From NCBI RefSeq assembly GCF_013348805.1, contig NZ_CP054690.1:4402001-4466000 (forward strand): DNA of 64,000 nucleotides, read 5' to 3'. Below the pieces are notes generated by a model. That model worked only from the letters and a program-made list of their open reading frames with translations, did no database searches and was not told where the DNA came from. Below, piece after piece: positions 3,001-7,200 of this stretch; within the stretch, counting starts at the first letter, position 1, and every line of letters begins with the position of its first letter. Made by a program: the position numbers and the translations under genes. Source of the DNA: Rhodococcus sp. W8901. Lineage in GTDB: Bacteria > Actinomycetota > Actinomycetes > Mycobacteriales > Mycobacteriaceae.

Positions 3001-4163
3001 TGCGGCGGTAGCGCCTCACCCGACGCGAACACGTTCCGCAGTGTCGTGACTGTCGCCGCACTCGGTTCGACCACGAACACCGACAGCATCGACGGCACGA
3101 AGTGCGCGACGGTGACGCCGCGCTCGACCATCGTGCGGGCCAGGTACGCGGGGTCGCGGTGGCCGTCCGGCAGCGCGATCGTCAGACGCGCACCGGCCTG
3201 CAGCGGCCAGAAGAACTCCCACACCGACACGTCGAACGTGAACGGCGTCTTCTGCAGCACCACGTCGGCTGCCGTCATCGGGTACATGTGCTGACGCCAG
3301 CGCAGGTTCGCGACGATCGCACCGTGCCCGACTGCCACACCCTTCGGGCGGCCGGTGGACCCGGACGTGAAGATGACGTACGCGAGGTTCTCGCCCGTCA
3401 GCGGTGTGAGACGGTCCACGTCGGTGACCGGATCGGCCGACAGTGCGTGCAGATCGAGGGTGTCGATCGCGAGGACCGGGGTGTCGGTGTCGAGCGTGAG
3501 ACCGTCCCGAGTCGTCGTGAGGATCGCGGCCGGACGAGCGATGTCGAGCACATAGCCGAGGCGGTCGGCCGGATGGTCCGGGTCCAGCGGGACGTACGCG
3601 CCGCCCGCCTTGACGATTGCGTACATCCCGATCAGCAGGTCGATCGATCGCCGGATGCCGAGACCCACCAGGGTGTCCGGACCGACACCGAGCGAGATCA
3701 GGTGGCGCGCGAGGCGGTTGGCGCGGGCATCGAACTCGGCATACGTCAGCGTCGCGCCGTCGAACTCGAGCGCGACGGCGTCCGGGGTGGCGGCGACCTG
3801 CTCGTCGAACAGTGAGGCGAGCGTGGTTGCGGGCTCGGCGGACGCCGCTGCGTCGTCCCCGAGCACCTCGGCGGCATCGCTGAACAGGGCACTCAGCAGC
3901 CCGGGCAGTCCCCCGGTCTCGGGCGCCTCGAGCAGACCCGGCGCCACGGTGGACAGCACGACCGGCACGAGCGCATCGATGCCGAGCACCCCGCCCATCG
4001 CGGCGTCGAGGGTCTCGATCTCCTGCTTCAGCTGTGCGTACGTGACGGTGATGTCACCAGCGGTCAGGGCGATCCGCTCGGGATCGACCTCGACCACCCC
4101 GGCGAGGAGTCGAGGCAGATCCTCGACCGTCAACGAGTCGACTCCGGGCTGCTGGGCCGCCAT
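1..4163 (-). CDS. Nonribosomal peptide synthetase subunit 2 (A*-A-T-C-A..., cut by left window edge)
   Basis: This is the 5' part of a second NRPS gene; the frame stays open to base 1, so the C-terminus lies outside. ATG at 4163 is preceded by GGAAGGA. Residues 1 to about 110 resemble the first ~90 residues of an A domain but stop before the core (A*). They also match the C-terminal tail of the upstream synthetase. A complete A domain follows ([10 protein letters not shown] near 268, NLYGPTE), then a carrier domain (LGGNSL near 652), a C domain ([13 protein letters not shown] near 725, active HHISADG) and the start of another A domain (TSGSTG near 1335). By my alignment to GrsA the first A pocket reads DVWHFSLVD, a serine-type code. 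The last A domain resembles A3 of subunit 1. The protein has no N-terminal C domain, so C7 of the upstream protein must serve its first A-T pair. The product is unknown. Confidence 0.93.
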   Translation of the reverse strand, partial: MAAQQPGVDSLTVEDLPRLLAGVVEVDPERIALTAGDITVTYAQLKQEIETLDAAMGGVLGIDALVPVVLSTVAPGLLEAPETGGLPGLLSALFSDAAEVLGDDAAASAEPATTLASLFDEQVAATPDAVALEFDGATLTYAEFDARANRLARHLISLGVGPDTLVGLGIRRSIDLLIGMYAIVKAGGAYVPLDPDHPADRLGYVLDIARPAAILTTTRDGLTLDTDTPVLAIDTLDLHALSADPVTDVDRLTPLTGENLAYVIFTSGSTGRPKGVAVGHGAIVANLRWRQHMYPMTAADVVLQKTPFTFDVSVWEFFWPLQAGARLTIALPDGHRDPAYLARTMVERGVTVAHFVPSMLSVFVVEPSAATVTTLRNVFASGEALPPQTAARFRDISGAALHNLYGPTEAAVDVTFHEVTAADTATVPIGAAVADTGLYVLDDGLRRVPAGTEGELYLAGVQLARGYLQRPDLTADRFVADPYGGPGERMYRTGDLVKLGGSGELEYVGRTDFQVKLRGLRIELGEIESALLDHDAVSQSVVVVHADPELGDHLVAYVVTDGGAPVDREEMAATVSARLPEYMVPSLFVAMAEFPLNASGKLDRKALPAPDFSSLASEYRAPSTPTEEMLAATFAEVLGAERMGVDDDYFALGGNSLSATRVVARINAERGIRIDVRDFFDAPTVARLAALVDAQVAAGGDTRAPLLAQPRPETVPLSLAQQRMWFLNRFDTDSAVNNIVVAIRLSGSLDVAALRGAVNDVVARHESLRTVFPERDGAASQVILPADRVTVDLDAESITESDIVGAVTETISRGFDVTAAVPIRMRLLAVSATEHVLVVVVHHISADGFSMGPLTRDIVMAYAARSAGVAPGWTPLDVQYADYALWQREVLGSEDDPESLIARQVDHWRAALADLPDRLDLPADRPRPAIASNAGASHRFGIDAALAARLDAVAREAGTTPFMVVHAALSVLLARLSGTTDIAIGTPVAGRGEAALDDLVGMFVNTLVLRADVREDRPFTELLAQVRASDLEAFGHADVPFERLVEVLSPARSQARHPLFQVVLSFQNMDRTELALGDLTVSGVDFDAAVAKFDLAVTLAEADSGAAGFDVDLTYATDLFDASTMRAFAERFLRVLGAVTADPSVVVGDIEILDGAEMSALTAADGRVTEPLLLPRILESAASTDPSAIALVAGERTVSYRELDESSSRLARVLIDRGAGPGDVVAIALTRSIDSVTAVWAVAKSGAAFVPVDPNYPADRVTHMVSDSRAVLGITHAEHADALPSGLPLLVLDDAATEQQIASASALAVSDADRRRPLHLADAVYVIYTSGSTGVPKGVVVTHTGLSAFADEQVERYRLGSGSRTLHFASPSFDASVLELLMAFGAG

Positions 4164-4206
4164 GTTCTTTGTCCTTCCCGACATCTGAAAACTTCGATCG
4201 CCCGAT

Positions 4207-4238
4207 TCGGGGGGAGCCGAACTGCCGGCTCCCCCCGA
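4207..4238 (-). terminator. Strong hairpin between the two NRPS genes
   Basis: Perfect 13-bp arms TCGGGGGGAGCCG (4207-4219) and CGGCTCCCCCCGA (4226-4238) enclose a 6-base loop. The hairpin starts 17 bases after the stop of the upstream NRPS gene and ends 43 bases before the ATG of the next. In the direction of transcription it is followed about 10 bases later only by a short GTTTTC, so it may be a partial terminator, an attenuator or an mRNA-stabilising stem rather than a full stop. Confidence 0.7.
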
Positions 4239-4254
4239 GATCATCCGACTGCGA

Positions 4255-7200
4255 TCACTCGTGTCCGCCCTCGATGATCGCCGATGCGTCGGCGATCATG
4301 CCCGCGATGGCCGACTGGTATCCGTCGGCGCCCAGGGCGGGCAGGATCCCCGGCAGCAGACCCGACAGCGCGACTGTCGTCAGGGCCTCGGGCTTCAACG
4401 CCCCGCCCATCGCGGTGGCCGTCGCGTCCAGCTTGGCGTGCAACTGGCCGAACGTGACGTCGGTGCCGGCGTGCGAGATGGCGACCGTGTCCGGTGACAC
4501 CTCGGCGGCTCCGGCCACCAACTCCGGCAGGTCCTCGACCGTCTTCGCCTTCTTCGGCTCGAGCGCGTCCCGCTCGGCATCGGTCGTCACGTCGATCGCC
4601 CGCAACACGATCGCCGGATCACCGGTGACGGCATCGAGGATCCGCACGAACCGATCCGCGAACACCGCGACGGTGTCCCGGTCGAACAGCTCCGTGGCGT
4701 AGGTGAACAGCGCACGGACACCGGCGAGACCACCGTCGGTGTGGTACTGCTCGACCACAGTGAGCTGGAGGTCGAACTTGGCCTGATCGCCGCCGAGATC
4801 CAGCGCCGACACCTCGAGGCCCGGCAGGGCGAAGGTTCCCGTCTCCATGTTCTGGAACGTGAGCATCACCTGGAACAGCGGTGTGTACGCGCTCGAGCGG
4901 CGCACCCCGGCGGCGTCCACCACCTGTTCGAACGGGACGTCGGCGTTGCCGAACGCCGCAAGGTCCTTCTCGCGGGCCTGCGCCAGCAGGTCCGTGAACG
5001 GCGCACCCGGCTCGACCCGCGTGCGCAGCGCCAGGGTGTTGACGAACATGCCGATCAGGTCGTCGAGAGCGGCCTCGCCGCGACCGGCGACCGGCGTACC
5101 GACCGTGACGTCGTTCGAGCCGCCGAGCCGGGACAGCAGCACCGCCAGCGCCGCATGGAACACCATGAACGTCGTCGCACCCTGCTCGCGGGCCGTGTTC
5201 TCCACGCGCGCCACGAGATCCGCGTCGATGTCGAACTCGACGGTGGCACCGGCCATCGACGGACGGGCCGGACGTGGCCGGTCCGTCGGCAGCGCCGACA
5301 GCTCCGGAGCGCCGCGCAACTCGTCCGTCCAGTACGCGATCTGACGCGACACCACGCTGTCCGGGTCGGCCCCGGAACCGACAACCGCGCGCTGCCACAG
5401 ACTGAAGTCCGCGTACTGCACGTCCAGCGGCTGCCACTGCGGCACACCACCGTCCACCCGCGCGACGTACGCGAACATCACGTCCCGGATCAGCGGACCC
5501 ATCGAGAAGCCGTCGGCGCTGATGTGGTGGGCGACGAACGCGAGCACGTGCTCGGTCTCGCCCAGCGTGAACAGCGCCGCGCGGACGGGAACCTCGGCAG
5601 TGACGTCGAATCCGCGTCCGACGAACCCGACGAGGCGGTCGACGATCTCGGCCTCGGTGGCCGCCACCGGGGCGAGGTCCGGTGCCACGTCGGAGGCCGG
5701 CACCAGTACCTGCGTGGGACCTTCCGGGGTGTCCGGGTACATCGTGTGCAGCACCTCGTGCCGCGCGATCACGTCGGCCACCGCAGCCCGCAGGACAGCG
5801 ATGTCCAGTGCACCGGACAGCCGCACCGCGACCGGGATGTTGTAGGCGGACGAACTCGGATCGACCTGGTTCAGAGTCCACATCCGCTGCTGCGCAAGCG
5901 ACAACGGAATCCGCTCCGGGCGCGGCCCGGCGGTCAGTGCGGCCCGGGCGCCCCGACCCACGAGCGGCGTCACCCCCGCCACCACGCCGGCGACAGTGGA
6001 GTCCTCGAACACCAGGCGCACCGGCACCTGGGTGTCGAGCGCGACGCCGAGTCGGGACACCAGCTGCGTCGCGACCAGCGAGTTGCCACCCAGTTCGAAG
6101 AAGTCGTCGTCCAGGCCGGCCCGTTCCACACCGAGCACGTCCGCGAACACACCGGCCACGATCTCCTCGAGCGGCGTCGTCGGCGCCCGGAAGTCGCGGG
6201 CCTCGAACACCGGCGCCGGCAGTGCCTTGCGGTCGAGCTTGCCGTTCACATTGAGCGGCAACGCCTCCAGCACCACGAACGCCGACGGCACCATGTACGA
6301 CGGCAGTGTCCGCGACAGTTCGTCGCGCACCTCGTCGACGTCCAGATCGGTCACAGCCACCAGATACGCCACGAGTCGCGTGCCCGTGTGATTGTCGGTG
6401 TGAGCGGTGACCGCAGCCTCACGCACCGCCGGCATCTCCCGCAGCGCGGCTTCGATCTCGCCGAGCTCGATCCGGAAGCCGCGAACCTTCACCTGGAAGT
6501 CGGCGCGTTCCACGTACTCGAGTTCGCCCTGCGCATTCCACCGGACGATGTCACCGGTGCGGTACATGCGCTCGCCGCTGCCCCACGGGTTCGCCACGAA
6601 CCGGTCGGCCGTGAGGTCGGGGCGGCCGTGGTAGCCGCGGGCCAACTGGTCGCCGGCCAGGTACAGCTCGCCGGTGACCCCGGCGGGCACCGGGCCCAGA
6701 CGCGAATCCAGCACGTACACCTGGGTGTTCCACTCGGGCACACCGATCGGCACCGTGCCGGTGTCGGCGGCGGTCACCTCGTGATGGGTCACCGACACCG
6801 CGGCCTCGGTGGGTCCGTACAGGTTGTGCAGGGTCGCGGTGTTGCGGCTCCGGAACGCCTGCGCGGTGGCCGCCGGCAGCGCCTCACCGATAGCGAAGAT
6901 CCGGCGCAGCGAGTCCGGCAGCCCGCCGTCGGCGGTCGTCAGCAGCATCGACAGCATCGACGGGACGACGTGCAGCGTGGTGATCTGCTCGCCGCGCAGC
7001 ACGTCCAGCAGGTAGCCCGGATCCCGGTGCCCGTCGGGCGCCGCGATCACCAGGCGGCCACCGCACGTCGCCATCGACCAGAACTCCCACACCGACAGGT
7101 CGAAGGTGGCCGCGGTCTTGAGGAGCGCTGCGTCCCTGCCGTCGAGGGCGTATTCGTGCCGCATCCACCGCAACTGGTTGACGATCGCGGTGTGCGCCAC

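Follow-up and report, generated by a model that had tools for sequence, protein, structure and literature searches.

The NRPS cluster and its split modules

The stretch of DNA analysed here (the window, 64,000 nucleotides) comes from the genome of Rhodococcus sp. W8901 (G000), a single contig of 5.71 Mb, and carries part of a nonribosomal peptide synthetase (NRPS) cluster. Open reading frames (ORFs) and a domain scan show three successive minus-strand NRPS genes, with 14 modules in total, built from condensation (C), adenylation (A) and thiolation (T) domains. Subunits 1 and 2 are described in Table 1. Subunit 3 consists of A-T, four C-A-T modules and a thioesterase (Pfam Thioesterase, E 2.8e-30). 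The junctions between subunits 1 and 2 and between subunits 2 and 3 both split a module between C and A. Our subject is the first of these, where a small domain that we call F stands on both sides, f1 at the end of subunit 1 and f2 at the start of subunit 2.

Table 1. Features of the window (G000:C1:4402001-4466000); positions are counted from its first letter.
Feature	Position	Strand	Basis or remark
NRPS subunit 1, 6,944 aa, (C-A-T)x6-C7-f1	4255..25089	-	ORF and domain scan
C7, final complete domain of subunit 1, residues 6394-6840	4570..5910	-	domain scan
f1, C-terminal F domain, final 96 aa of subunit 1, directly after C7	4258..4545	-	A-domain-derived
f1 Lys at F position 38	codon 4432..4434	-	K/R in 80/83 main-class f1
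Inverted repeat between f1 stop and f2 start, perfect 12-bp arms, no T run	4208..4237	.	sequence and folding
NRPS subunit 2, 3,564 aa, f2-A7-T-C-A-T-C-A-T-C-A* (A*, dead A remnant)	1..4163, runs beyond window	-	ORF and domain scan
Likely ATG of subunit 2	4161-4163	-	
f2, N-terminal F domain of subunit 2, core of ~91 aa	about 3861..4133	-	Pfam AMP-binding positions 5-43, E 0.0017
f2 Glu at F position 38	codon 4020..4022	-	E in 78/83 main-class f2
A7, complete A domain behind f2	2361..3809	-	domain scan
Biotin-dependent carboxylase gene	36012-37790		BT_MCC_alpha and biotin carboxylase domains

f1 and f2 are homologous and derive from an A domain

A sequence-only reading of the window had proposed that subunit 1 closes, after C7, with some 100 residues of an A-domain N-terminus, and that a similar piece opens subunit 2 before a complete A domain. 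Both pieces are present, as 96 residues and as a core of about 91 residues in front of A7. The same reading held them to be homologous, with common motifs in the same order, and this is borne out: f1 and f2 align without gaps over 91 residues, with a Smith-Waterman score of 168. Among the cluster's 15 A-type domains, which comprise 14 A domains and the dead remnant in subunit 2, the best scores are 64 against f1 and 78 against f2, so the resemblance between the two exceeds that to any A domain of the cluster. Scores after 2,000 shuffles were 32 ± 6, with a maximum of 59. When its own genome was searched with a 131-residue query containing f1, the top non-self match was f2 (E 3.5e-14).

Pfam finds a trace of AMP-binding in f2 and none in f1. 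Eight F members were compared with Pfam up to E 1, and three of them match AMP-binding, the only other hits being two single weak matches to other families. Local alignment to A domains covers only the initial 50-70 residues or so of F, and it is the global profile-profile alignment (hhalign) that, allowing for an internal deletion, equates F with A residues 1-99 (probability 96.5%, E 7.5e-10). F is therefore a shortened A-derived domain and not a plain truncation, which refines the earlier proposal that it is only the N-terminal part of an A domain. F ends ahead of A3, so that core motifs A3-A10 are absent, and it has no catalytic motif. In a profile search of the PDB, F positions 8-67 match LgrA residues 209-269 (whole-sequence E 3e-10). 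F is thus homologous to the N-terminus of A domains such as that of LgrA, and differs in its length of about 95 residues and in its lack of a catalytic motif.

Distribution of F in related genomes

An 8-row F profile was used to search 301 genomes of the same family, with a cut-off of E ≤ 1e-14. F is present in 126 of them, and in 14 of the 31 genera. There are two matches in 103 genomes, three in 18, one in three, and five and six in one genome each. In a sample of the order (200 genomes) and one of the phylum (296), both of which include family members, matches at E ≤ 1e-15 come from the same family only; as far as sampled, the F pair is restricted to this family. C, A, T and F were annotated with their own profiles on the DNA of 118 of the 126 genomes. 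This was done in two sets, in the second of which F matches overlapping a complete A domain were left out; a weaker second F in G102 (41 bits) was found only in the second.

An adjacent, facing f1/f2 pair is found in 83 of the 126 genomes, F within a chain in 39, and separate f1 and f2 in four. The in-chain class was assigned from the DNA in 31 genomes and, in the other eight (G100, G137, G028, G114, G055, G088, G126 and G085), from both matches sharing one open frame. Because two genomes have two pairs, there are 85 facing-pair loci. In all of these f1 follows a C domain, and in 84 f2 precedes an A domain by profile match, the 85th being G003, in which f2 is frameshifted. The distance from the end of f1 to the stop codon is 1-17 residues in the first set (66 f1) and 2-64 residues in the second (23 f1, of which 4 are unpaired or non-adjacent). 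The sequence-only reading had suggested looking for the same fragment at facing ends of adjacent genes in related genomes, and it is there, always at a C/A split. This confirms that the f1/f2 pair is real, conserved and more general than a single cluster.

At 16 of the 85 loci, the f2 ATG nearest to F overlaps or abuts the f1 stop codon (gap -4 to 0 nt), which suggests coupled translation. These loci belong to genus g22 (12 genomes) and to G039, G177, G186 and G222 (genus g27). In G129, an F lies near the end of a 259-residue open frame.

A single-chain form, apparently at the same locus

Two genomes of the window's own genus, G010 and G012, have the synthetase unsplit, as single frames of 11,806 and 11,306 residues. 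Each chain holds two C-F-A modules, two modules apart, whose F domains we call i1 and i2. The remaining single-chain frames are 8,270 to 11,944 residues long; those of G029 and G030 show one F each. Split and single-chain forms occur together in none of the 126 genomes. For the three genera in which both forms are found (g1, g6 and g23), the chance of seeing no overlap is 0.066, 0.0055 and 0.0002, ignoring relatedness and, in g6 and g23, with the count limited to genomes matched at E ≤ 1e-6.

The carboxylase of Table 1 has a clear best match in each of six other genomes (74-84% identity, the next best being 44-54%). ORF lengths place it upstream of the first NRPS gene and on the same strand, the distance being about 11 kb in the split G000 and G006 and about 7 kb in the single-chain G010 and G012. 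With gene lengths assumed to be as in relatives, the distance is about 6 kb in G035 (single chain) and about 4 kb in G092 (split); in G001 the two genes are on different contigs. Since the carboxylase neighbours both forms, one and the same locus appears to hold either the one or the other. Comparison of the 16 C and A domains of G010 with the window's subunits gave three reciprocal best matches and no clear module orthology. In a tree of A domains, 65 that follow f2 join seven that follow i2 (support 0.998). None of the 25 A domains that follow i1 in single-chain genomes fits the usual A3 pattern.

Ancestry and constraint

In a FastTree phylogeny of 182 F and 14 A-domain N-termini, F is separate from A. 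The classes f1 (66 sequences), f2 (66), i1 (25) and i2 (25) are each monophyletic, with f1 and f2 joining first (0.835), then i1 (0.828) and then i2 (0.925). As this tree stands, the in-chain form appears to be older than the split form. A tree of 246 F, from which those below 40 bits were left out, again makes the main f1 and f2 classes sisters (0.958). It also groups a second split system, found in G033, G074 and G090, with i1 (0.938, with weak support at some inner nodes), so that the facing arrangement seems to have arisen at least twice.

The median ratio of nonsynonymous to synonymous substitution rates (dN/dS) over 1,193 close pairs is 0.43 for f1, 0.41 for f2, 0.43 for C and 0.30 for A; as these values come from simple counting in GC-rich genomes, only the comparison from domain to domain is meaningful. 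In the first set, the complete C domain before f1 has HHxxxD followed by G (57) or A (7) in 64 of 64, and the A domain after f2 has the A3, A5, A7 and A8 patterns in 65 of 65, the sequences being cut before A10. With these motifs conserved, the split module looks active. The frameshifted G003 was dropped from the dN/dS set, and from the mirror-tree and mutual-information sets below.

Charge at position 38 and co-variation

The two classes carry opposite charges at F position 38 (alignment column 54), where f1 has K or R in 80 of 83 sequences and f2 has E in 78 of 83 and Q in the other five. These 83 main pairs exclude the three of the second system and include the non-adjacent pair of G040, which is outside the C+A tree. 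Elsewhere the position is R in 29 of 29 i1, K in 29 of 29 i2 and R in 118 of 145 A domains. The basic residue looks ancestral, and the charge reversal is thus peculiar to the main f2. In the second system both f1 and f2 have R (3/3 each), and so there is no charge pair.

Jointly, f1 and f2 are positive and negative in 78 pairs, positive and neutral in two, and both neutral in three, while neutral with negative is never seen. The association has a Fisher p of 1.1e-4 if relatedness is ignored. In the C+A tree, both f1 losses of the basic residue fall where f2 lost its Glu. This co-loss ranks first of 780 column pairs (p = 0.0012), where 1.6 pairs would be expected by chance at p ≤ 0.002. F position 8 is acidic in 59% of f1 and basic in 64% of f2, and an alternative is that the charge at position 38 forms an intradomain salt bridge with position 8 rather than an f1:f2 contact.

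In a mirror-tree analysis, the partial correlation of f1 with f2, given C and A, is 0.29, a value reached by 0 of 300 within-cluster shuffles at each of three cluster cut-offs. The same-chain correlations (f1 with C, 0.49; f2 with A, 0.42) exceed it, and that of f1 with A is 0.13.

Structure prediction

AlphaFold2 was used to predict f1 and f2 of G222 joined by a Gly linker (21 paired rows). The predicted local distance difference test (pLDDT) is mostly 77-89 by block in both halves and below 50 in the linker, and the predicted template modelling score (pTM) is 0.44. Each half folds as helix-hairpin-helix-helix-helix. The larger C-f1-Gly-f2-A construct (85 rows) has a mean pLDDT of 84.7, with F blocks mostly at 70-90, and a pTM of 0.46. 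The suggestion that the two fragments co-fold into one A-like fold is not upheld, because each half folds alone in the models; nor did co-folding across the junction give a confident f1:f2 placement. A Foldseek search with the f1-f2 model ranks the N-terminal parts of A domains first, with a best E of 0.18 and none at or below 0.001. Foldseek, and VIA-align, which re-ranks Foldseek matches, returned adenylate-forming and C-A structures, with no docking fold among the best 50 of each.

A proposed function for the F pair

Our preferred reading, which we hold with slightly better than even confidence, is that f1 and f2 would each form one half of a docking device where a module is split between C and A. 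Docking is the most likely purpose of the pair, and the odds are higher if any role in assembly is counted; for direct contact between f1 and f2 they are roughly level. In the mechanism that we propose, F, a segment of about 95 residues derived from the N-terminus of an A domain, would originally have been an in-chain spacer between C and A. The module would then have been cut at F, with each side retaining its own copy, as C-f1 and f2-A. The two copies would contact each other in trans, probably with helix 2 and Lys38/Glu38 in or near the contact, and this would hold C7 of subunit 1 beside A7-T7 of subunit 2, where the peptide bound to T6 could pass to the amino acid loaded on T7. The charge reversal, found in f2 only, would convert a self-like F into a matched pair. 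The fuller proposal, of a natural C/A docking system in which an in-chain A segment was duplicated and oppositely charged to give a pseudo-symmetric heterodimer, the facing form of which arose at least twice, is more tentative, and we place it somewhat below an even chance.

The original suggestion that the fragments pair to bring C7 to A7 stands in part: the facing pairs in 83 genomes, the sister relationship of the two classes, their C-like constraint and their opposite charges speak for it, and the lack of a predicted placement, the in-chain F and the lone f2 copies described below speak against it. For binding as such, the charge pairing and the mirror-tree correlation count weakly in favour.

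A number of results weigh against docking by f1:f2 contact. Chief among them are the pTM values of 0.44 and 0.46, which mean that the parts of the models have no confident placement, AlphaFold2 being limited here by low paired depth and as a single-chain predictor. Where matches of the C-f1-f2-A model take in both C and A, the root mean square deviation from solved C-A structures is as high as about 23 Å, so that the canonical C-A platform is not reproduced. The presence of F in an uninterrupted chain in 39 genomes means that docking cannot be its sole or original role. Once the 780 pairs are allowed for, the K/E co-loss is no longer significant, and position 38 was picked out after the fact, which makes it a lead only. 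The mirror-tree signal may be residual phylogeny, as the correlations of f2 with C (0.26) and of C with A (0.24) are similar in size. Mutual information between f1 and f2 was uninformative, the inter-domain share of the top pairs being as by chance (effective number of sequences 38). In four genomes f1 and f2 are separate, some 10 kb apart in G040 and on different contigs in G127, G250 and G294, and the partners would need to meet without co-translation.

There are also seven lone f2 without a neighbouring f1 (G033, G039, G048, G268, G298 and two in G074), a count that does not include the third matches of 13 of the 18 three-match genomes. The NRPS gene upstream stops at a bare C domain in G298, G048 and G268. 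The sequence-only reading had named a fragment on one side only as an outcome that would tell against it. Upstream of the two lone f2 of G074, the NRPS gene ends without C or F in what is, by eye, thioesterase-like sequence; no upstream NRPS gene was seen in G039, and in G033 the sequence stretch stops too early. These copies show that f2 can exist, and perhaps work, without an adjacent f1. The lone f2 proteins might use an f1 elsewhere in the genome, with one f1 serving several f2.

The alternative that survives best, although we think it unlikely, is that F aids assembly without any F:F contact. Here f1 would pack on C7 and reach A7, or f2 would pack on A7 and reach C7, each F thus occupying the position that the one F has in an in-chain C-F-A module, and docking would be via the C and A surfaces. 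This fits the one F that stands between C and A in 39 genomes, the same-chain correlations being larger than that of f1 with f2, the correlation of f2 with C, the absence of an F:F placement in the models and the tolerance of f2 facing a bare C end. However, two F copies would compete for one site, f1 and f2 are oppositely charged at the same position, and f1 is only weakly correlated with A.

A little less probable again is a role without docking, as a spacer or folding cap, which F would have taken over from C-F-A modules; both ends would have kept it because it stabilises the C or A domain beside it. Such a role would accommodate the branching of in-chain F outside f1 and f2 in the tree, the models in which each half folds but makes no confident contact, and the occurrence of lone f2; but it leaves unexplained why F stands on both sides of 85 splits, why the charge reversal is class-specific and why facing pairs apparently had a second origin.

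It is very improbable that F has no function and was left behind when A domains recombined or were duplicated in tandem where the gene split. Its homology to A residues 1-99 could be so explained, and the next junction in the cluster also ends in an A remnant. We reject a scar, though, on the dN/dS of F, which is as low as that of the neighbouring C, on its conservation in 83 genomes, and on the single ancestry of all F, which are not fresh scars. Finally, the frames of G003 are broken, but an assembly or frameshift artefact as the source of the split is excluded in practice by 85 pair loci in many independent assemblies, including the single-contig G000, G006 and G008, and by f2 having its own start motifs.

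Other features of the junctions

Hairpins like the 12-bp inverted repeat of the window are found in G001, G002, G004, G007 and G009, which are of the same genus and have f1-f2 gaps of 87-91 nt. No similar hairpin lies between the f1 stop and the f2 start in G008 (gap 21 nt) or G222 (gap 0 nt). An Rfam scan of the window gave zero matches.

The junction between subunits 2 and 3, outside the window at about G000:C1 4395404-4396400, is a second C/A split with different end elements. The last C of subunit 2 is followed by 302 residues with a net charge of -31, an A remnant that lacks the A3 motif and is conserved in the window and the five congeners compared. An Arg-rich tail opens subunit 3 in 7 of the 7 sequences looked at. 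In G001 and G006, subunits 2 and 3 are fused, and C passes to A without the remnant or the Arg-rich tail. The remnant and the tail are perhaps a candidate electrostatic docking device.

Comparison with known docking systems

Docking types of NRPSs described in PMC9113145 include the communication-mediating (COM) helix-hand type, the PAX three-helix type and beta-hairpin docking. The F pair resembles the docking domains treated there in having matched elements at facing C- and N-termini, meant to join successive subunits in order; such elements at the facing termini of partner subunits are what we find at 85 loci. The examples in that source lie at junctions of epimerization (E) or peptidyl carrier protein (PCP) domains with C domains, and consist of one or two helices or a hand on the C domain, whereas f1 and f2 lie at a C/A junction inside one module, with an A-derived domain of about 95 residues on both sides. 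According to PMC11546977, later findings put COM domains between the domains of single modules as well, so that the intramodular position alone is not new.

The sequence-only reading had stated that known docking devices look different, and the COM and PAX types are indeed rejected here. A COM pair has a donor helix after E or PCP and an acceptor hand on the downstream C; here the order is C-f1 followed by f2-A. A PAX pair, in which a one-helix N-terminal docking domain enters a two-helix C-terminal one at a PCP/C junction, is ruled out by the C/A junction and by both sides having about 95 residues with a modelled beta hairpin. In beta-hairpin docking (TubC_N type), the acceptor is N-terminal to a C or Cy domain. 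The position of f2 is different, as it precedes A.

No description of f1/f2-type fragments was found among open-licence PMC papers, and the word "docking" is absent from the main text of a survey of Rhodococcus NRPS clusters (PMC5550956). A parallel is offered by the Type S NRPSs, as presented in PMC8362031, in which synthetic zippers in the C-A linker likewise rejoin subunits in trans at the C/A boundary. Those zippers are engineered coiled coils, whereas f1 and f2 are natural, conserved and derived from an A domain. If the pair binds, it would be a natural way of rejoining an NRPS at the C-A boundary, where engineers placed synthetic zippers (PMC8362031). It would also offer about 85 natural pairs with sequence variation, a single-chain control at the same locus and one charge pair, and F would show a route from the N-terminus of a catalytic domain to an interaction module.

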